DNA from: Planctomycetaceae bacterium
GTDB taxonomy: Bacteria; Planctomycetota; Planctomycetia; Planctomycetales; Planctomycetaceae
DNA length: 25,377 nt
Direction of reading: 5' to 3'
Assembly: GCA_029259875.1 (NCBI GenBank)
Contig: JAJDEK010000235.1
Location: forward strand, 1-25,377
Part shown: positions 15,583-25,377 of the stretch, piece by piece
Position numbering within the stretch: position 1 is the first letter of the stretch
Layout of the letters: each line of letters opens with the position of its first letter
The notes under the pieces: generated by a model
What the model saw: the letters and a program-made list of their open reading frames with translations, nothing else
What the model was told of the DNA's origin: nothing
The model's database searches: none
Translations under genes and position numbers: made by a program

Positions 15583-17340
15583 TCAGATTTTCAAAATGGA
15601 TTCAAAATAAGGGATAATTTGTACTTGAAAAGCTTGTAAGCTGAAATAACCGAAGAAAGCGGCAGCCCAGACCATAACGACAAATCGCAAGGGATTGGTA
15701 CTGATGCTTCGACTGAGTATTTTCGTGTTCATATACAATAGAATCATCGAATAGAGAAACATCACTCCACCATTCATGGCGGCTGAAGTTTCAATGAGAA
15801 ACAATGGTTGCTTGAATAGGGGGTTAATTGAGCCATAAAGTAGGATTGCAGAACCAAGTAAAATCTCGCTCCAAAGGAAGACATAATAAAGTTTGCTCAA
15901 CGACCAGTTCTCATTCTCCCTCAAATAATTCACTTTCAGAATATCAGCAGAGATACGTGCGGTTACGTCGAGGACTCCCAATTCGGTTGTGAGCAGTATG
16001 GCAGCCCCCATGAGTAAGAAGAGCAATTTGAAAGTTCCACCAAGCCTGTCTTCAAGAAGAGTTGCCTGGCCCCAGATAAAATTAAGACCGGATCCAAACT
16101 GCGCCACGCCTTCTTTAAGTTGCCCGTTTGCATCATAAAACAGGGAATAAGAAATCAGCGACAATAAAACCAGACAAGCCAGACAGGTCAGAAAGAAGCT
16201 GAAGAAATGTTCGATGTTGGCAGCACGCCACCATTGTCGCCAGAGCTTTTGATTTTCATCGGTATGTTTAAAGTGATATCCGGCTTCACTGACGGCTTCT
16301 TCTTGTCCGGTAATCGGACTGGTGATTCGTCCGATATACTTGCCCATTCCGTAGCCTTTATCTTTGATGAAGTTGCTTTGGCCAAGATTCATGGTTCCCC
16401 CAGCGCCGGCAAATGCCAATGCTCCAAGAAGTGCCATGGTTGACAAACCACTGGATTCACTAGGCATCTGCCCAATACTGACTGCCCCTTGCATCATAGA
16501 TGTAACGGCATAAGGTTCAATGAGATAGATTCCCAGAATCACTGCAATTACGAAGATTGTACCGACCAGAAAAATCTGTATTTTTTCAACGGTGTTATAA
16601 ACCACTGGCCCTGTTGTTAAGACAATACCTACTAAGAGTAAGCCTGCAATTCCCAGAAACGAACTATACTTGGCCTCATATTGCAGGTCGTATCCTTGAT
16701 TAATTTTGTTGAACAGTTCATTTGATTGGTCTTGGCTCTGATTCTTCGTGAAAGCGCTACTTAAGTTGTCTCGTTCGGATTTGTCCATAGATCCACGCCA
16801 CTTCAAAGTATTTGTTTCGGCGGAGTAAGAGGCTTTGTCGGGTAAATCTTGAAGCGAGAATTGAGACGCAGCTGGTTCTACTTGTATGCTGGCAATGGTT
16901 TCCGGACCCAAAAAAGTCCAGCTTAGCATGGTACCAGCGCCGGTTGCCCAACCTGGCCAGGCCCAGGGAATGATATTCAGGATGAGCATGATCCAAGCCC
17001 AGTTTTTATTCATACGACAGAAGCCGATAATAGCGCTCTCACCAGTAGCCAAGGTCCAGCGTTCAATTTCCATATTCAGAAAAAACTGAGTCATTACACC
17101 CAGAAGGCAGGCCCAAAAGAAAAGGAAGCCCGTTTTATAAGTTATGTAAGGCCAATGAACAAATTCACCCGATCCAAGCGAGAGTCCTGCCAGCATAATG
17201 CTGGGGCCGATCATTTTTCTCCAGGAGATGGCTGGGGGTAAGTCTTTGTATTTCAGAGGAGGTAACGACTGGTGTGGAATCACCTCATCAGGTACTAATT
17301 CTTCTTCTTCATCGAGATCAGAGTTACCTTGATCTGTCAT
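15583..17340 (-). CDS. Nramp-related membrane transporter lacking canonical metal motifs
   Basis: 585 residues from ATG 17340, which has AAAGAGG five bases upstream; an ATG at 17355 would add five residues but lacks a site. A soluble acidic N-tail (1-38) leads to helix 1 (MIGPSIMLAGLSLGSGEFVHWP). About eleven membrane helices follow, with a hydrophilic insert at about 148-225 before the sixth. The fold and the GSGE..HWPYIT pattern match the planctomycete branch of the Nramp/NRAMP-like family. The usual metal-binding DPGN in helix 1 is replaced by SLGSGE, and I see no MPH motif in helix 6 (GALAFAGAGGTMNLGQ instead). Substrate may thus not be Mn2+/Fe2+. Inner membrane. Possibly co-transcribed with the isochorismatase-like gene upstream. 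Confidence 0.8.
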   Translation of the reverse strand: MTDQGNSDLDEEEELVPDEVIPHQSLPPLKYKDLPPAISWRKMIGPSIMLAGLSLGSGEFVHWPYITYKTGFLFFWACLLGVMTQFFLNMEIERWTLATGESAIIGFCRMNKNWAWIMLILNIIPWAWPGWATGAGTMLSWTFLGPETIASIQVEPAASQFSLQDLPDKASYSAETNTLKWRGSMDKSERDNLSSAFTKNQSQDQSNELFNKINQGYDLQYEAKYSSFLGIAGLLLVGIVLTTGPVVYNTVEKIQIFLVGTIFVIAVILGIYLIEPYAVTSMMQGAVSIGQMPSESSGLSTMALLGALAFAGAGGTMNLGQSNFIKDKGYGMGKYIGRITSPITGQEEAVSEAGYHFKHTDENQKLWRQWWRAANIEHFFSFFLTCLACLVLLSLISYSLFYDANGQLKEGVAQFGSGLNFIWGQATLLEDRLGGTFKLLFLLMGAAILLTTELGVLDVTARISADILKVNYLRENENWSLSKLYYVFLWSEILLGSAILLYGSINPLFKQPLFLIETSAAMNGGVMFLYSMILLYMNTKILSRSISTNPLRFVVMVWAAAFFGYFSLQAFQVQIIPYFESILKI

Positions 17341-17478
17341 GGAAACCTCTTTCATGAACGGCGAGCGGAATTCAGAATGATCTCATTCTAAGTCTGGAAC
17401 ACTTTATCCGCTACTCAAGCAAGGTTTGGATCGAGAGGAATATGAAATTACCTTTTGATTAGTAGCATGTCATATAAT

Positions 17479-18592: not shown

Positions 18593-19609
18593 TTAGTGTT
18601 GATTCTTAGAAACGCGTTTTGCAATGTCGCTTAATCCAACAATTTCAGCTTTATCCCCTGCTTGGTTGACGAGATCACAGATTAACTTGATTGTTTCAAA
18701 CTTTGGATCTTCGACATACATAATAGATGGATGACACAGAAAATCGAACACGCCGCCTTGTTCTATCGCCTGTTGAACGCAGAGCTCTACAGATTTGAGA
18801 AAATAATTTAATTTCCAATAGCCGGACCGAAAAGCTCCTACATCACTGATGGGACTCATAGGGATTTCAATCAAACCAGTTGGATAGATATAGGGTTGAG
18901 CCTCTTTTTGTGCTTGTAAAATGGACTGATAGATTTCCTGGGTAGGCTCTTCTTTGGGCCGACTATATTTATGTTGTGGGTATTTAGAACTGACCCATTT
19001 AAAACCCTCAGCGAGTAACATTTTTTGCAAATCTGGTCGCTTATTTAGCGCATTGCTCGAACCACCTGGTGTTCTGAATCCATCAGGTATAATTCCTAAT
19101 CGCTGCTTCATTGCGTCAGTGGTTAATCGAATATTTTGACGAATGACTTGCTCTGCTGATTTTCCTCCTAGTAACCAGGGAGAACGTTGAAAACGAAATT
19201 GCGTTTTTTGCGGTTCTGTGGCCCACACATTGACATGGTCATAAGTATGATTGCCGATAGGATGGCCCATTTCTGAGATATTTTTAAGCCAAGTAATATC
19301 TTTTTGTTCTAAGACACGACCCACACAAAAAAAATGAATCAACCCACCTAATTCTTTTGCAGTCTCAGCTGCTTTCAATGAGTAGTCCTTTGTTTCTTGA
19401 TTCAAGTTTCCTTTTTGGAAGTCCCATTCGAATATGTCCCTCTGTGGATATTGGCGGCTCATTTCCAGATCAAAGGTAATCGCAATTTGCGATTTTTTCG
19501 GAGCGTGAGAATCAGCGGATCGTGTAAATGCTGTTTGTATTCCAAAGGCCGACCCCGTTAAAGCAGTCACGAATGAGCGGCGCGAAATTGCAGCATTTAA
19601 TTCTGACAT
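18593..19609 (-). CDS. Tat-exported polysaccharide deacetylase (NodB fold)
   Basis: 338 residues from ATG 19609; this start places a twin-arginine signal (SRRSFV at 9-14, then ALTGSAFG) at the N-terminus, whereas the longer ORF start (19669) would push it inwards. The NodB-type carbohydrate esterase family 4 domain shows ITFDLEM with the metal-binding/catalytic Asp (D47), the metal motif GHPIGNHTYDH (H...H), and GFRTPGG. These enzymes remove N-acetyl groups from glycans in the periplasm or at the surface. The motif is TFDLE rather than TFDDG, so it may be a divergent member. FLCHPSIMY near the C-terminus fits the leaving-group His. It lies next to the secreted isochorismatase-like gene and may share its transcript. 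Confidence 0.85.
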   Translation of the reverse strand: MSELNAAISRRSFVTALTGSAFGIQTAFTRSADSHAPKKSQIAITFDLEMSRQYPQRDIFEWDFQKGNLNQETKDYSLKAAETAKELGGLIHFFCVGRVLEQKDITWLKNISEMGHPIGNHTYDHVNVWATEPQKTQFRFQRSPWLLGGKSAEQVIRQNIRLTTDAMKQRLGIIPDGFRTPGGSSNALNKRPDLQKMLLAEGFKWVSSKYPQHKYSRPKEEPTQEIYQSILQAQKEAQPYIYPTGLIEIPMSPISDVGAFRSGYWKLNYFLKSVELCVQQAIEQGGVFDFLCHPSIMYVEDPKFETIKLICDLVNQAGDKAEIVGLSDIAKRVSKNQH

Positions 19610-19820
19610 CAGTGTTTTTCCAATGTAACAAGTGATTTCAGCTAAGTTAAAAATCCAATCCAGAGGCACTTTTGCCTGATTATATAAGAATTAATAGATG
19701 TATCTTCTGGAATCACGCAAAGCAATTGCCAATTTAACAAATGGACTAGTTTCACTCTATGAATAAAGGATTATTAACTGAGATCGGATCGATTCCACTT
19801 AAGAAATAATAAATTGTATA

Positions 19821-20557: not shown

Positions 20558-20899
20558 ATGGCAAAGTGCGATCAAGGATATCTCTGCGTAGTATGTGGTC
20601 GAGAGGTCGAGAATATCGAAGACAGCGCACTCTATCTGCGTTATATCATCGGAGAAGTAAACGAAGATGAGTTGAATTCACAACCCGAGCATCATATTCG
20701 ATGTAATCCTGCTTTAGCTCAATTCATTGTCGATGATCACTTCGAACCGGTTTTTATAGAGGGCCCATTTGATAAGCGTGAACTTGATTCATCTGAGGCC
20801 CTTCTTAGAGAGAAGTTAATCACCAAAGGCTGGAGAAGGCTATGTGAAGTCAAAAGCAAGCAACTCGCAATCAGTGAATTCCCATTAAAAGATCAATGA
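20558..20899 (+). CDS. Small protein with a CxxC/HxxxC zinc-site pattern
   Basis: 113 residues. LCVVCG near the start (C9, C13... CxxC type) and HHIRC later supply four potential zinc ligands. Between them lies a helical YLRYIIGEV segment, followed by NPALAQFIVDDHF. The C-terminal half has a second helix-rich domain (LREKLITKGWRRLCEV). No signal peptide. The pattern fits small conserved planctomycete zinc proteins but no function is known to me. A strong terminator lies downstream at 20976-21015, so it is transcribed separately from the cassette that follows and may belong to the host chromosome rather than to the element. Confidence 0.7.
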   Translation: MAKCDQGYLCVVCGREVENIEDSALYLRYIIGEVNEDELNSQPEHHIRCNPALAQFIVDDHFEPVFIEGPFDKRELDSSEALLREKLITKGWRRLCEVKSKQLAISEFPLKDQ

Positions 20900-21102: not shown

Positions 21103-21351
21103 ATGATGCCTGAAACGGTTCGTAAAGGAATATTTATTCCAGCATGGGTGATTGCATGTGTTTTCTCTCCCATTGTTGCTGGAGGTGTTGGTGCAATTAC
21201 TTGGACCGCAAAAACATTAATCGAACATAGTCAGCGACTAATAGAGATTGATGAAAAGCTAGATTCCAATAAAGAGTTACTCATCGAAATGGTGAACTCG
21301 CATGAGAGACGAATCAGCCGATTAGAGGACAAGGCTTTCGGAGAAAAATGA
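21103..21351 (+). CDS. Small one-TM, coiled-coil protein (holin-like candidate)
   Basis: 82 residues, starting ATGATG (either Met). A membrane segment at about 10-32 (IFIPAWVIACVFSPIVAGGVGAITW, listed in parts here: IFIPAWVIACVFSP then IVAGGVGAI) is followed by a charged amphipathic helix with heptad pattern (LIEIDEKLDSNKELLIEMV, RISRLEDKAF). This is the build of phage membrane accessory proteins and some holins. Its stop overlaps the ATG of the phospholipase-like gene (ATGA), so the two are translated together. Could also be an unrelated membrane anchor or a spanin-like part. No homologue recognised. Confidence 0.55.
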   Translation: MMPETVRKGIFIPAWVIACVFSPIVAGGVGAITWTAKTLIEHSQRLIEIDEKLDSNKELLIEMVNSHERRISRLEDKAFGEK

Positions 21352-21725
21352 TGGTTGAAATTCAAACTACCGATCTGCCATTGCAACTCGTCGAATTAAT
21401 GGAAGGCCCCACGCCTCCCGACTATTTCGTTTCAAATGGGTGTAGTTATTCACCGGATCGGTGGGGAGGTATTGATATTAGAGCAGCTTGTCACTGGCAT
21501 GATTACGCTTACCAAATAGGTGGGTGTAAGAAAGATCGCCAATTGGCTGATTCGTCATTTTATCGAAATCTCAGACGCTGTGATTTAGGAAAGTTCATGG
21601 CGAATATTTATTACCGCCGTGTGCGGTTGTTTGGAGTTGCTGCTTTTAACTGGGCTGAAGGGAAAGTGCCTTTGAATCCCTGGCATTATTTTCTACTGTT
21701 TTTTGAGAGGTACATTCAATGGTGA
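21348..21725 (+). CDS. Phospholipase A2-like protein
   Basis: 125 residues. The pattern NGCSYSPD (about 30-37, a calcium-loop-like segment), then AACHWHDYAYQIGG with C48, H51, D52 and Y55, then KKDRQLADSSFYRNL, matches the PLA2 catalytic helix CxxHDxxY and the second helix Asp. Phospholipase A2 cleaves the sn-2 acyl chain of phospholipids; relatives in parvovirus capsids and bacteria serve membrane escape or attack. No signal peptide is seen, so export might use the upstream membrane protein. The C-terminus has an aromatic hydrophobic segment (WHYFLLFF). Start ATG 21348 (or 21351) overlaps the previous stop; its own end overlaps the protease start by seven bases. Confidence 0.7.
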   Translation: MMVEIQTTDLPLQLVELMEGPTPPDYFVSNGCSYSPDRWGGIDIRAACHWHDYAYQIGGCKKDRQLADSSFYRNLRRCDLGKFMANIYYRRVRLFGVAAFNWAEGKVPLNPWHYFLLFFERYIQW

Positions 21726-22561
21726 GGGTGCTCACGATTTTAGTCGTGTTGATAATGACCTCTGTAGTGCAGGCTCAGGCATTGGTCCTTCGAACAGTGG
21801 GAAAGCAATGCACTACCAACGGTTGTCGTCAAGTCATTGGTACAGGAGCTTGTGCCTATATCGGAAACATTGATGACAGGTCGATCTATTTGACGGCTGC
21901 TCACAATCTGGAAGGGAACCCGGCAGTATTCATTGGCTATGCCGGTAGGTGGTGGCAAGCCAGAGTCATCCATAAGCGATATCAAAAGAATATTGATTAT
22001 GCGGTGATTGAAACTCAGAAAATATCTTCTACACGATGCTTTAAAATTGCAGAAAGCCAACCCGGTAACGGAGTTGATGCAGTGGCCTATGGCTATGCGA
22101 ACGGTATATATAATGTGAAGACTCTGAGAGCGAAAATCAGAGTGAACAGGAATGGGAGATTCTTTTCGAAACTCGTTGCCAAAGGGGATTCAGGTGGACC
22201 AATCGTTGTGAATGGTCACGTGGTAGGGATCATTAAAGGTCACGATTACGCGAACACGATCTATACAGATTCGGTCTTGATTAGAGCAGAATTGCTCAGG
22301 ATTTATGGAAGGATGCCTGCTTGTGGGGGATCAGCGATTGTTGTGGAGAATCCACCAGAACCTGATCCTCCCGTACCCAAGTACGAAATGGAAATCACGA
22401 CCTTGCAAGGAGAGATTTCAAAACTACGAAAGCAGTTAGATCGGCTTTCTAAAACAAAGATTCCGATCCAGATCATTGGTTCAAACAATGAGGTCTTAAG
22501 CGAACAGCAATATCCGCTGGGAGACCCAATTAAACTCAGGTTTAAAGCCGTTAAAAAGTGA
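21719..22561 (+). CDS. Secreted trypsin-like serine protease with coiled-coil tail
   Basis: 280 residues. A Sec signal peptide (VLTILVVLIMTSVVQAQA, 4-21) leads to a chymotrypsin-fold protease: H62 in LTAAHNL, D93 in NIDYAVIE and S158 in KGDSGGPIV make the triad. Cys residues (31, 36, 45, 107, 202) may form disulfides. A proline-rich linker (VVENPPEPDPPVP) joins a predicted coiled coil (about 222-245, EITTLQGEISKLRKQLDRL) and a short beta tail. It should act outside the cytoplasm, cut proteins, and perhaps multimerise or attach through the coiled coil. It overlaps the phospholipase gene by seven bases, implying coordinated expression. Confidence 0.85.
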   Translation: MVRVLTILVVLIMTSVVQAQALVLRTVGKQCTTNGCRQVIGTGACAYIGNIDDRSIYLTAAHNLEGNPAVFIGYAGRWWQARVIHKRYQKNIDYAVIETQKISSTRCFKIAESQPGNGVDAVAYGYANGIYNVKTLRAKIRVNRNGRFFSKLVAKGDSGGPIVVNGHVVGIIKGHDYANTIYTDSVLIRAELLRIYGRMPACGGSAIVVENPPEPDPPVPKYEMEITTLQGEISKLRKQLDRLSKTKIPIQIIGSNNEVLSEQQYPLGDPIKLRFKAVKK

Positions 22562-22570
22562 GGCCTAATA

Positions 22571-22843
22571 ATGCCAGACGGCGATGTTTTAGATGTGGAA
22601 ATCCCCATTGAGGATAAAGGAGAAAAGGAGATGGCTGCTGTGGATTTATCAGAAAATGTTGCGAATCATATGCTGACACAACTCATGCAAACAGGAACGG
22701 TGGCACAGAATAACTTTGTGACTGTTCAGAAGGTTGTTGACTATGACTACTTGGAAAACAAACGGATGGTGACCCTTGATGAGGCAGTTGGTATTCGTGA
22801 GGTGCAATCTAAGGTGAACCCCGGTGGACCGGCTGCTACGTGA
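22571..22843 (+). CDS. Small protein of unknown function with two possible starts
   Basis: 90 residues from ATG 22571 (GAGG seven bases before) or 70 residues from ATG 22631, which has AAAGGAG eight bases before. The extra N-terminus of the long form is acidic. The body is helical (VANHMLTQLMQTGTVAQNNF) and then has YDYLENKRMVTLDEAVGI and a Gly/Pro/Ala end. No membrane span or metal motif. Its TGA overlaps the next ATG by one base (TGATG), so translation is coupled. Function unknown. Confidence 0.65.
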   Translation: MPDGDVLDVEIPIEDKGEKEMAAVDLSENVANHMLTQLMQTGTVAQNNFVTVQKVVDYDYLENKRMVTLDEAVGIREVQSKVNPGGPAAT

Positions 22844-23091
22844 TGCCCGATCCTCTGGAAGAACTGATCAGGCAAAACAATATGTTTCATAACAGCCTGA
22901 TCGAACAGAACAACGAGTTAGACCGAGCGTTTCAAAATGGAACGTTCGGTCAATTTGTGCAATCATGGAGCGAAGAAAATGATGGAGGAAGCTCAACCGA
23001 AGACATGGCAGGAGAAGATAGCGAAACACTTCTGGTCGATCAAAGCGGGGGAGAGAGCGGAGAATCTGAGACAGGCGAGCCGACGATTTAA
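22843..23091 (+). CDS. Small acidic protein, overlaps the next gene in another frame
   Basis: 82 residues from ATG 22843, one base overlapping the previous stop; a GTG at 22840 is also in frame. The first 45 residues (PLEELIRQNNMF, EQNNELDRAFQNG, FGQFVQSW) look structured and helical. The remainder is a low-complexity acidic tail with Gly, Ser, Glu and Asp (about 46-82). That tail coincides with the overlap with the next gene (22979-23091), so its composition may be dictated by that gene's frame. Unknown function. Confidence 0.5.
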   Translation: MPDPLEELIRQNNMFHNSLIEQNNELDRAFQNGTFGQFVQSWSEENDGGSSTEDMAGEDSETLLVDQSGGESGESETGEPTI

Positions 23092-23404
23092 CAATGTGGA
23101 ATCGTTGGTGATGTCCACTCGCGAAAAGCTGCTTGGAAAAGAGGTTGTTGACAATAACCGTCCAGAGGCCGAAGACATGCATATTGGTGACGACAACAGC
23201 GTGGTTCATCAGTACTTACCAGCAAGCCGAAACACTGCAGGTACACTAGCAAAGCTTGCAGTAGGAGCGGGGCTTCTGGCTACAGGTGTCGGCGTACCAA
23301 TTGGTGGTTGGTTGATTGCTGATGCATTGAAAAACAATTCCGATAACGAGGTCGTGATTCCTATCGATAGCGATACTTTATTTGATTTAGAGTTAGTGAA
23401 GTAA
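22979..23404 (+). CDS. Membrane protein of unknown function, overlapping start
   Basis: 141 residues from ATG 22979, which has GGAG eight bases upstream; an ATG at 22937 lies further upstream in the same frame but lacks a comparable ribosome binding site. The N-terminal half is basic and helical (KTWQEKIAKHFWSIKAGERAE, split here: KTWQEKIAKHF / WSIKAGERAE). A Gly/Ala-rich hydrophobic segment near the C-terminus (LAKLAVGAGLLATGVGVPIG) suggests a membrane span or membrane-active helix, followed by an acidic tail. It overlaps the preceding gene by 113 bases in a different frame. Function unknown; membrane-active roles (holin, pilot) are possible but unproven. Confidence 0.6.
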   Translation: MMEEAQPKTWQEKIAKHFWSIKAGERAENLRQASRRFNNVESLVMSTREKLLGKEVVDNNRPEAEDMHIGDDNSVVHQYLPASRNTAGTLAKLAVGAGLLATGVGVPIGGWLIADALKNNSDNEVVIPIDSDTLFDLELVK

Positions 23405-23534
23405 GAATATCATGTGATTCAATTTGTGCACCGATGCTTGATTGCACCCGATGACAGCGGTTGAATTTCATTTAGAATGAGCATTGAATGTCGTTTGACA
23501 CCGAAAGTTTCTCGATTTGAAAAGGAATATGACA

Positions 23535-23795
23535 ATGCCTCATTTTATTGTTTATCTTGCGCAAGATAAAAATCAACACCCTGTAAAACGTCTTGATTGC
23601 GAAGCACAAACGCATATATTGGCGGCGAAACTGGTGGAAGCCGAATATCCCGATTTAGTTGTCAATTCTGTATTGGTAAAGCATGAACCGATTTCGTCTT
23701 GTGCCCGGTGTGGGGCACCAATTTTTAAGGGCGATTATCACAAAGATCATATACGTCAACGCTATGGAGCGAATCGTTGTCTGGACTGTATGTAA
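23535..23795 (+). CDS. Small zinc-ribbon-like protein
   Basis: 86 residues from ATG 23535, which has AGGA eight bases upstream; a longer ORF starts at TTG 23517. The C-terminal third has two CxxC pairs (SCARCGAP and NRCLDCM) separated by a charged segment (KGDYHKDHIRQRYG), so it probably binds one zinc. The N-terminus (PHFIVYLAQDKNQHPVKRLDC) looks like a beta-alpha domain. No signal peptide. It is 21 bases before the ParB-like start and likely co-transcribed. DNA or RNA binding is plausible but inferred only from the motif. Confidence 0.7.
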   Translation: MPHFIVYLAQDKNQHPVKRLDCEAQTHILAAKLVEAEYPDLVVNSVLVKHEPISSCARCGAPIFKGDYHKDHIRQRYGANRCLDCM

Positions 23796-23816: not shown

Positions 23817-24374
23817 ATGCAAATTAAAGACCGCATTAAAAGTTTTCGACGTATCAAAGCTTCACAACTTAAACGCAATGCGAAAAACTGGCGAGTTCAT
23901 CCTGAATCACAGGAAACAGCATTAAGAGCGATTCTAACAGATGTGGGGTTTGCTTCCGCTTGTCTGGTGAGAGATTGTAAGAATGGGACATTCGAATTGA
24001 TTGATGGTCATTTAAGAGCTGACATCGCCGAAGATGAAAAAGTCCCCTGTCTGATTTTGGATGTGACAAAATCTGAAGCCGATAAAATATTGGCAACATT
24101 TGATATGGTCACATCCATGGCAAATACTGAGCAAGCAGCATTGGACAAATTGATTGCTTCGATTTCTACTGAGTCTAAAGAACTACAAAATGTGCTGAGT
24201 ACTCTCTCGAATGATGGTTCTAAATTGCTGGAAATGATTCAAGCTGAAGATGAGTCACATCTTTTGATGGACTCTTTCAGCATACTGATTGATTGTGAAG
24301 ATGAATTCGATCAAATAACTCTTTTACAGCGGCTAAAAAAAGAGGGGCTGGCATGTCGTGCGTGGATATCATAA
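23817..24374 (+). CDS. ParB-like nuclease-domain protein
   Basis: 185 residues from ATG 23817 (GTG 23811 would add two). The N-terminus matches the ParB/Srx fold: LKRNAKNWRVHPESQETAL, then ACLVRD, then the signature IDGHLRADIA (62-71), then VPCLILDVT and the ATFDMVTSMA segment typical of phage and plasmid ParB-like proteins. The C-terminal FSILIDCEDEFDQITLLQRLKKEGL is a helical extension also seen in phage forms. The ParB box here is DGHLR instead of GERR. It overlaps the ABC-GNAT gene start by 22 bases in another frame and is probably functionally coupled to it. Chromosome-partition function is unlikely; a phage DNA-processing role is more likely. Confidence 0.85.
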   Translation: MQIKDRIKSFRRIKASQLKRNAKNWRVHPESQETALRAILTDVGFASACLVRDCKNGTFELIDGHLRADIAEDEKVPCLILDVTKSEADKILATFDMVTSMANTEQAALDKLIASISTESKELQNVLSTLSNDGSKLLEMIQAEDESHLLMDSFSILIDCEDEFDQITLLQRLKKEGLACRAWIS

Positions 24375-25377
24375 AGGAAAGTAATATCGTACGTACTCCT
24401 CGTGTCATGCAATTAGAGGGAATGTTCGGTATTGATGTTGAAAAGAAGAGCCGTGTTGAATTATCCGTAGAGTTACCTCTAGATAATCACAGTTGGAATA
24501 TTGGCTTGATTGTCGGTCCTTCTGGATGTGGAAAGACAACCATTGCAAAAGAGCTTTTCAAAGGAGAGTTAATTGGAGACTTTGAATGGTTTCAAAACAA
24601 AAGCATTCTCGATTCATTTCCGAAAGAAATGGGAATTAAAGAAATCACAGGTCTCCTTTCTTCAGTTGGTTTCTCTTCACCTCCGAATTGGTTAAGACCA
24701 TTTCGTGTTCTTTCAAATGGCGAACAGTTTCGAGTGACCATTGCACGAGCTTTAGCCGAGCAACCAGACTTAGTTGTTATCGATGAGTTTACTTCAGTCG
24801 TTGATCGGACTGTGGCCCAAGTCGGAAGTAGTGCCATTGCAAAATCGGTTCGGAAAAGGCAACAAAAATTTATCGCTGTTACCTGTCATTACGACATTAT
24901 TGACTGGCTTGACCCCGACTGGACTTATCAACCAGCAACTGGTGATTTTCAATGGAGGTGTGAAAGGCAGTCTCGGCCCTCAATCTCTCTCGAAATTATT
25001 AACGTGCATCGAAGTGCGTGGCAACTATTTCGGAAACATCATTATTTAGATTCAACAATTCAAAAGTCTGCCAACTGTTTTATGGCATTAGTCAATGGCC
25101 GGCCGGCTGCTTTCACCGCAGTGATTCATTTTCCACACAAAACAGCACCTTCGTTCCGAGAGCATCGCACGGTCTGTCTCCCTGAATTTCAAGGAGTTGG
25201 TATTGGAAATGCGATTAGTGAATATGTGGCTTCTCTATATATATGTAAAAAATCTTACACGAGTGTCACTGGTCATCCCGCCATGATTCGACATCGGGCG
25301 AAGTCCAACTTTTGGAGAATGACCCGCAAACCATCTTCAGTACAGCGTCAAAGTGGGTTAGAGCGAATTCGAAATCG
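24353..25377 (+). CDS. ABC-type ATPase fused to GNAT acetyltransferase, partial (runs off right edge)
   Basis: At least 341 residues from ATG 24353, with AGAGGGG five bases upstream; no stop is reached. The ABC domain has Walker A GPSGCGKTT (55-63), signature LSNGEQFRVTIARALAE (120-136), Walker B DLVVIDEFTS (139-148) and an H-loop CHYD (178-181). There is no membrane domain, so it is not a transporter. The second half is GNAT-like: WQLFRKHHYLD near 223-233 and the acetyl-CoA/cofactor-binding motif EFQGVGIGNAI (278-288). This is the architecture of COG2401 (ABC ATPase fused to a predicted acetyltransferase). It may work with the adjacent ParB-like protein on DNA, for example in modification or packaging. 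The gene continues beyond 25377. Confidence 0.9.
   Translation, partial: MSCVDIIKESNIVRTPRVMQLEGMFGIDVEKKSRVELSVELPLDNHSWNIGLIVGPSGCGKTTIAKELFKGELIGDFEWFQNKSILDSFPKEMGIKEITGLLSSVGFSSPPNWLRPFRVLSNGEQFRVTIARALAEQPDLVVIDEFTSVVDRTVAQVGSSAIAKSVRKRQQKFIAVTCHYDIIDWLDPDWTYQPATGDFQWRCERQSRPSISLEIINVHRSAWQLFRKHHYLDSTIQKSANCFMALVNGRPAAFTAVIHFPHKTAPSFREHRTVCLPEFQGVGIGNAISEYVASLYICKKSYTSVTGHPAMIRHRAKSNFWRMTRKPSSVQRQSGLERIRN

Follow-up and report, generated by a model that had tools for sequence, protein, structure and literature searches.

The right end of a 25,377-nucleotide (nt) contig of a Planctomycetaceae bacterium (GenBank assembly GCA_029259875.1, contig JAJDEK010000235.1; the whole contig is hereafter the window) carries two overlapping genes that encode a ParB-like protein and a protein combining an ABC ATPase with a GNAT domain (hereafter the fusion). 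We found that this pair occupies a single chromosomal site in the genus Gimesia, has a conserved overlap and is subject to purifying selection. Our preferred interpretation, held with moderate confidence, is that the pair is an intact domesticated phage cassette, the fusion of which most likely transfers acyl groups to DNA bases under the control of ATP, with the ParB-like partner as the recruiting component. New here are the domestication throughout the genus, the conservation of the 22-nt overlap and a separable C-terminal module of the partner.

The window is one contig (C152) of a 3.59-Mb genome assembled in 589 contigs, and this genome probably belongs to a Gimesia species, because the database protein nearest to the L021 ortholog is named Gimesia aquarii. 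The fusion was found once per genome in 15 of the 16 other same-genus genomes, at 72-87% identity. For the remaining genome (G006), a DNA search for the right half of the island, i.e., the gene cluster that ends with the fusion, found nothing; contig C54 of this assembly ends beside the island gene for a 90-residue protein, and thus the missing fusion may be an assembly gap. Two other island genes occurred in all 17 Gimesia genomes (that of the window included), and in zero and one (a weak match, E 1e-5) of 42 other relatives. Members of the fusion family at E <1e-40 were detected in nine of the 42 non-Gimesia relatives, one of which is from the same family (G021), and 294 genomes drawn from the phylum gave 15 matches at E 1e-40, six from the same genus and nine others. 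The Gimesia copies of the fusion form one clade with all 21 rows (support 100/99); the tree group test gives six changes for Gimesia, since five rows of the clade were unlabelled (three named Gimesia, P0009, which is identical to a Gimesia row, and P0021). For five flanking genes, pairwise distances are correlated with those of the fusion (r 0.91-0.96, although not from independent pairs). For eight pairs, the ratio of nonsynonymous to synonymous substitution rates (dN/dS) was 0.065-0.33 for the fusion, 0.09-0.27 for the ParB-like gene and 0.017-0.24 for flanking genes, the top values coming from the closest pair, with dS <0.1; two island genes, encoding a protease and a 155-residue protein, are less constrained (up to 0.44 and 0.46, respectively). 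The single clade, the distances that track the flanks and the low dN/dS are indicative of vertical descent under selection.

The overlap of 22 bases between the two genes, described in the initial annotation, was confirmed. The window, 15 of 15 Gimesia loci and two other planctomycete loci share this exact length. For the viral set, 80 of 160 stretches were kept, 79 of them with the anchor open reading frame (ORF), and discarding loci with 90% identity or more left a non-redundant set of 63; the two genes share exactly 22 nt in 34 of these, 4 nt in 11 and 19 nt in two, and six differ from all of these. The recurrence of the exact length across Gimesia, other planctomycete and viral loci shows that the overlap is not accidental. 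An ORF of the partner family, including ORFs with the C-terminal module only, lies no more than 400 nt upstream of the fusion in 53 of the 63 viral loci, a count that is circular in part, since the search profile was built partly from the same loci; the other ten have no upstream partner ORF, and two of them lacked upstream sequence. The partner alignment (A1) combined 39 viral with six Gimesia rows, picked manually from the Gimesia loci and from 51 upstream ORFs on the same strand.

Taken on its own, the protein of the window is only weakly assigned to ParB by sequence. The IDGHLR motif, on which this assignment was initially based, is present, the protein matches phrog_498 (E 4.7e-11, residues 34-151 of a DNA-methyltransferase family) and phrog_620 (E 2e-8), and PF02195 (ParB_N) is matched by 27 of the 45 aligned family members, but the window protein itself has no ParB match in Pfam. 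A segregation ParB was considered and rejected: no helix-turn-helix domain was found by Pfam, and no ParA is among the island genes. The C-terminus of the partner contains approximately 35 conserved residues, with Q164 invariant and E161 and C178 nearly so. This module was detected in 97 ORFs, in 15 of which the ParB part was unmatched (two of these are cut by contig ends); at E 0.1, no ParB-like domain was found in 13 module-only loci (three planctomycete genomes, nine viral contigs and phage Komp_PAO1_1). Six module-only matches are strong and the rest are weak (up to E 0.013); because many are weak and several come from close relatives, independent cases are few. Among eight named phage loci outside the profile, the module is present in seven and the ParB part in six: the module stands alone in Komp_PAO1_1 and in a Porphyromonas phage (the Porphyromonas ORF is annotated as an acr candidate), and Pmp13 has the ParB part, with the module not detectable. 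At locus L089, the module stands after a CPCC stretch. We infer from these sequences that the C-terminal module is the constant partner and probably docks the fusion, with DNA binding contributed by a ParB domain that can be exchanged.

The Walker A and B motifs, the ABC signature and the QGVGIG motif, which we take to be the acyl-CoA loop, were all located in one chain, as had been proposed. The Pfam model ABC_tran is over the cut-off (E 2.4e-10), and the GNAT models Acetyltransf_7 (E 0.007) and Acetyltransf_1 (E 0.019) are under it. The predicted structures of a fusion ortholog have two globular domains with ABC and GNAT folds, in agreement with the initial placement of the C-terminal half in the GNAT fold. 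The suggestion that the HHYL segment may be part of the active site gains support from sequence conservation, as H230 is nearly invariant and Y231 is invariant in 69 sequences. Identity as an ABC transporter was rejected, given the two soluble domains of the model and the lack of a permease among the neighbours scanned.

The fusion matches phrog_11143 at E 7.2e-107 over residues 17-327 of 341, i.e., over both domains, and a tblastn search with it detected 74 phage records, 44 of which cover at least 80% of the query. In a protein search, at least 7,990 of 8,000 scored candidates passed E 0.001, a number that may include other ABC proteins; among the 120 matches listed, identity to the query is 55-96%. 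According to excerpts of Iyer et al. 2021 (PMC7824862), a GNAT coupled with an ABC ATPase is predicted to place an uncharacterised acyl modification on a DNA base, Tenacibaculum phage pT24 is named as a carrier, and the prediction for the phage fusion family is traced to Iyer et al. 2013. The pT24 protein is among our tblastn matches; therefore, the core of the DNA-acylation idea is already in print for the phage family. This prediction and the frequency of the family in phages favor the DNA modification that the initial annotation had suggested. A literature search of open-licence PMC papers found no experimental test of the predicted cassette chemistry, and no paper on Gimesia and DNA modification together; six papers contain both Gimesia and prophage. 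The domain order is the same in the phage family and in the window fusion, whereas the Gimesia copy differs in being fixed in a bacterial chromosome genus-wide, without phage genes.

In phages, a formyltransferase-family ORF is next after the fusion in six of the 63 viral loci by a profile search, although four of these six rows helped to build the profile. Pfam Formyl_trans_N is over the cut-off in Komp_PAO1_1, in the Porphyromonas phage and in four of the six loci. In Gordonia phage BiggityBass, the gene after the fusion, annotated as a tRNA-methyltransferase, matches the formyltransferase profile at 2.5e-52. The phage or viral loci with such a gene directly after the fusion are L130, L134, L128, L104, L107, L109 and L121; the Gimesia loci have no formyltransferase neighbour. 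The formyltransferase is a possible second step of a DNA-modification pathway, which is supported, albeit not defined, since a second acyl-transfer enzyme adjoins the fusion. By analogy with the formylation of glycinamide in purine synthesis, the mark in these phages may be an amino-acyl group, the free amine of which is then formylated.

The fusion gene runs off the window, the last 140 nt of which (25238-25377) align with the end of contig C297, differing at 4 positions and giving 46 identical residues; the reading frame reaches its stop in C297, and chromosomal genes come next. The gene order is the same on single contigs of relatives; the C152-C297 join itself is unproven in the assembly. 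The 4 mismatches leave the protein unchanged and are perhaps strain variation in the assembly. To the right, C297 encodes a PIG-L deacetylase, a transaldolase and a sulfatase (Pfam, over cut-off) and a glucosamine-6-phosphate isomerase-like protein (under cut-off), and orthologs of the PIG-L and isomerase-like genes are found in 15 of 15 Gimesia loci. To the left, a polysaccharide-deacetylase-like gene (window 18593-19669) is present in 13 of the 14 loci that have a left side, and the other, L025, has the gene of window positions 15583-17355. Because the left-border gene for a 113-residue protein at 20558 is widespread without island genes (43 of 44 genome loci, the sole exception being a Gimesia locus), we delimit the island as extending from about 21.1 kb to the fusion end (about 25.5 kb) and containing about eight genes; no preserved empty site was found elsewhere among these 44 loci. 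The initial reading of the locus as a phage or packaging module does not agree with the chromosomal flanks and the lack of packaging genes. Its test, plain chromosomal genes to the right, turned out only partly decisive: such genes were found in C297, but four island genes to the left have phage relatives. A prophage was rejected, as neither the island nor its flanks gave Pfam or PHROGs matches to integrase, terminase or virion genes, except for a weak tail-chaperone label. A search for tRNAs in the window, L006, L021, L028 and L131 found none.

The phage relatives of the four genes are located on L131, a 47.5-kb viral contig from IMG/VR, in the same order and at 51-80% identity, with matches to an endonuclease, a tail-fibre protein and a terminase nearby. 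Since one phage contig carries four island genes in order, a phage origin of this part of the island is likely. The phospholipase-like, zinc-ribbon-like, small membrane and protease proteins yielded no relative in viral scans, and the 90-residue protein yielded L131 only; L131 nevertheless holds relatives of the phospholipase-like and protease proteins, which shows that word-based scans of this kind miss relatives.

Table 1. Features of the gene pair and of the island in the window.
Feature	Position	Strand	Remarks
ParB-like gene (ORF1)	23817..24374	+	185 aa from ATG; alternative GTG start 23811
ABC-ATPase/GNAT fusion (ORF2)	24353..25377	+	runs off window end; 372 aa in orthologs
Overlap ORF1/ORF2, 22 nt	24353..24374	+	kept in genus and many phages
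IDGHLR motif, ParB-like gene	starts 24000	+	
C-terminal module FSILIDC...CRAWIS of ParB-like protein	24276..24374 (start approximate)	+	elsewhere also without ParB domain
Walker A GPSGCGKTT, fusion	24515-24541	+	
ABC signature LSNGEQFR, fusion	24710-24733	+	
Walker B VVIDEF, fusion	24773-24790	+	
H-loop CHYD, fusion	24884-24895	+	
HHYL motif, ahead of GNAT core	25037..25048	+	
QGVGIG loop motif, fusion	25190..25207	+	
Island gene: small protein, hydrophobic segment (by eye)	21103..21351	+	
Island gene: phospholipase-A2-like	21348..21725	+	PF09056 under cut-off; phrog_1158 4.7e-9; relative in L131
Island gene: trypsin-like protease	21719..22561	+	PF00089 over cut-off; relative in L131
Island gene: 90 aa, no family	22571..22843	+	17/17 Gimesia genomes; relative in L131
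Island gene: 155 aa, hydrophobic segment (by eye)	22937..23404	+	relative in L131
Island gene: small protein, two terminal CxxC pairs, zinc-ribbon-like by eye	23517..23795	+	

Several further observations concern the island and its surroundings. An 83-residue ORF of no family (22840-23091) overlaps the next gene and may be a ninth island gene; an 80-residue ORF is at the same place in L131. The left-border protein (20558-20899) contains cysteines, has no assigned family and is widespread in Planctomycetota. A response-regulator gene is located left of the island in many Gimesia species (L031:8401-8979), with no such call for the window, L021 and L022. In genome G015, the island (L030) is altered by an opposite-strand 487-residue ORF inserted beside the phospholipase-like gene, and a second phospholipase-like copy is elsewhere in the genome. 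It should be noted that ORFs were called by a simple procedure, which overlooked some of the island genes in certain Gimesia loci (e.g., L023, L026, L030).

The initial annotation also drew a parallel to phage Mu Mom, and sequence gives this link no support beyond the GNAT superfamily. Pfam gave no Mom match (PF25680) for the fusion at E 0.1, and hhalign against 40 Mom proteins was not significant (P 0.35 for the whole fusion, 0.05-0.07 for the GNAT half in local mode), with the HY motif in register in this alignment. Mom, which modifies N6 of adenine, has 241 residues and no ABC domain, unlike the fusion. The Mom structure 8bv8 in the PDB is not among the 50 structural matches listed, which tells nothing either way. 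The tail-fibre genes of the Mu-like phage Komp_PAO1_1 are followed by the fusion, a position resembling that of com-mom in Mu, where an invertase gene intervenes. At L119:6972-7439, a PHROGs Mom-like protein (2.6e-32) overlaps the fusion end by 4 nt; it was not counted as Mom, having a Pfam Mom score of 25.3 versus the cut-off of 27.1 and nothing significant by BLAST or a Mu-type Mom profile. A parallel in the partner is offered by ParB-methyltransferase fusions, DpdB and DndB, in which, according to excerpts of PMC12704722 and PMC12839542, a ParB-like protein is tied to a DNA-modifying enzyme, as is proposed here; the difference is that in the present pair the short C-terminal module, which is also found in proteins lacking the ParB domain, seems to be the constant part.

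According to the preferred interpretation, the fusion would perform ATP-gated acyl transfer onto DNA bases, and the ParB-like product of the upstream gene that overlaps it would have its ParB domain on DNA and its C-terminal module holding the fusion. A phage-derived fragment with the cassette would have entered a Gimesia ancestor at one chromosomal site, where the cassette was kept and virion and packaging genes were lost or never arrived; the present role would probably be marking of the host chromosome or action on incoming DNA. Several points weigh against this interpretation. Acylation of DNA by the pair is plausible but is a prediction from fold and neighbourhood, and the Mom profiles give no significant match. 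The nearest solved GNAT folds listed are protein and small-molecule acetyltransferases, including TmcA (RNA), with no pointer to DNA. The dN/dS of the fusion is somewhat higher than that of several flanking genes. L131 does not settle the direction of transfer between phage and Gimesia, and it has no fusion match, so the cassette and the four L131-type genes may differ in source.

These folds would also fit a GNAT that acetylates protein or RNA while the ATPase remodels the target. TmcA, the tRNA(Met) cytidine acetyltransferase, which acetylates a tRNA cytidine, has a P-loop ATPase and a GNAT in one chain, as the fusion does. The TmcA ATPase is not of the ABC type, and its target is RNA. The best structural matches listed for the GNAT half are IAA acetyltransferase-like, RimI and Naa50, with TmcA sixth (Foldseek, E 1.9e-5). 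However, the frequent link to a ParB-like or module ORF in viral loci (partly circular, as noted above) and the kinship of the partner's ParB to DNA-methyltransferase families point to DNA, and we regard a protein or RNA target as rather unlikely. A joint role of the pair, the protease and the phospholipase-like protein in an anti-phage defence island would be in line with the retention of accessory genes of these types and with PADLOC matches, weak and partial, to mad3 for the fusion (2.1e-13, residues 104-158) and to RT-Protease for the protease (1.7e-6); yet these matches span general ABC or protease stretches only, and the island is a fixed feature of the genus, while variation between strains is usual for defence islands, making this role improbable.

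For phages, a packaging helper, with ParB and ATPase working with the terminase on phage DNA, has to be considered, since at least 21 of the 85 downstream ORFs of viral loci (hand-picked, alignment A2) match the terminase large subunit PHROG, and terminases follow the fusion in BiggityBass, Pmp13 and SL25 and, in an excerpt of PMC6078989, also in LE4. Conversely, the annotated neighbours are not terminases in EastWest, Komp_PAO1_1 and the Porphyromonas phage, and, with the pair under selection in Gimesia, the island and its flanks nonetheless lack terminase, portal and capsid genes. Because no packaging genes remain in the island, such a role is very unlikely. A GNAT is not known to have a packaging role. 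The phage relatives of island genes would also fit a recent prophage or a decaying, functionless remnant, but this is hardly credible and already contradicted by the one site in the genus, the intact frames and motifs, the low dN/dS and the distances tracking the flanks.

Gimesia offers a phage-free host where the chemistry of the cassette could be tested; because the genus, which includes the named, fully sequenced species G. aquarii and G. fumaroli, keeps one chromosomal copy with no phage around, the question is directly testable. It is a tentative possibility that the Gimesia chromosome bears an ATP-gated acyl mark on a DNA base, made by a former phage enzyme and serving as a genus-wide epigenetic or self-marking system. 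Should the chromosome carry such a modification, an enzyme for DNA hypermodification in phages would have turned into a part of normal bacterial physiology.
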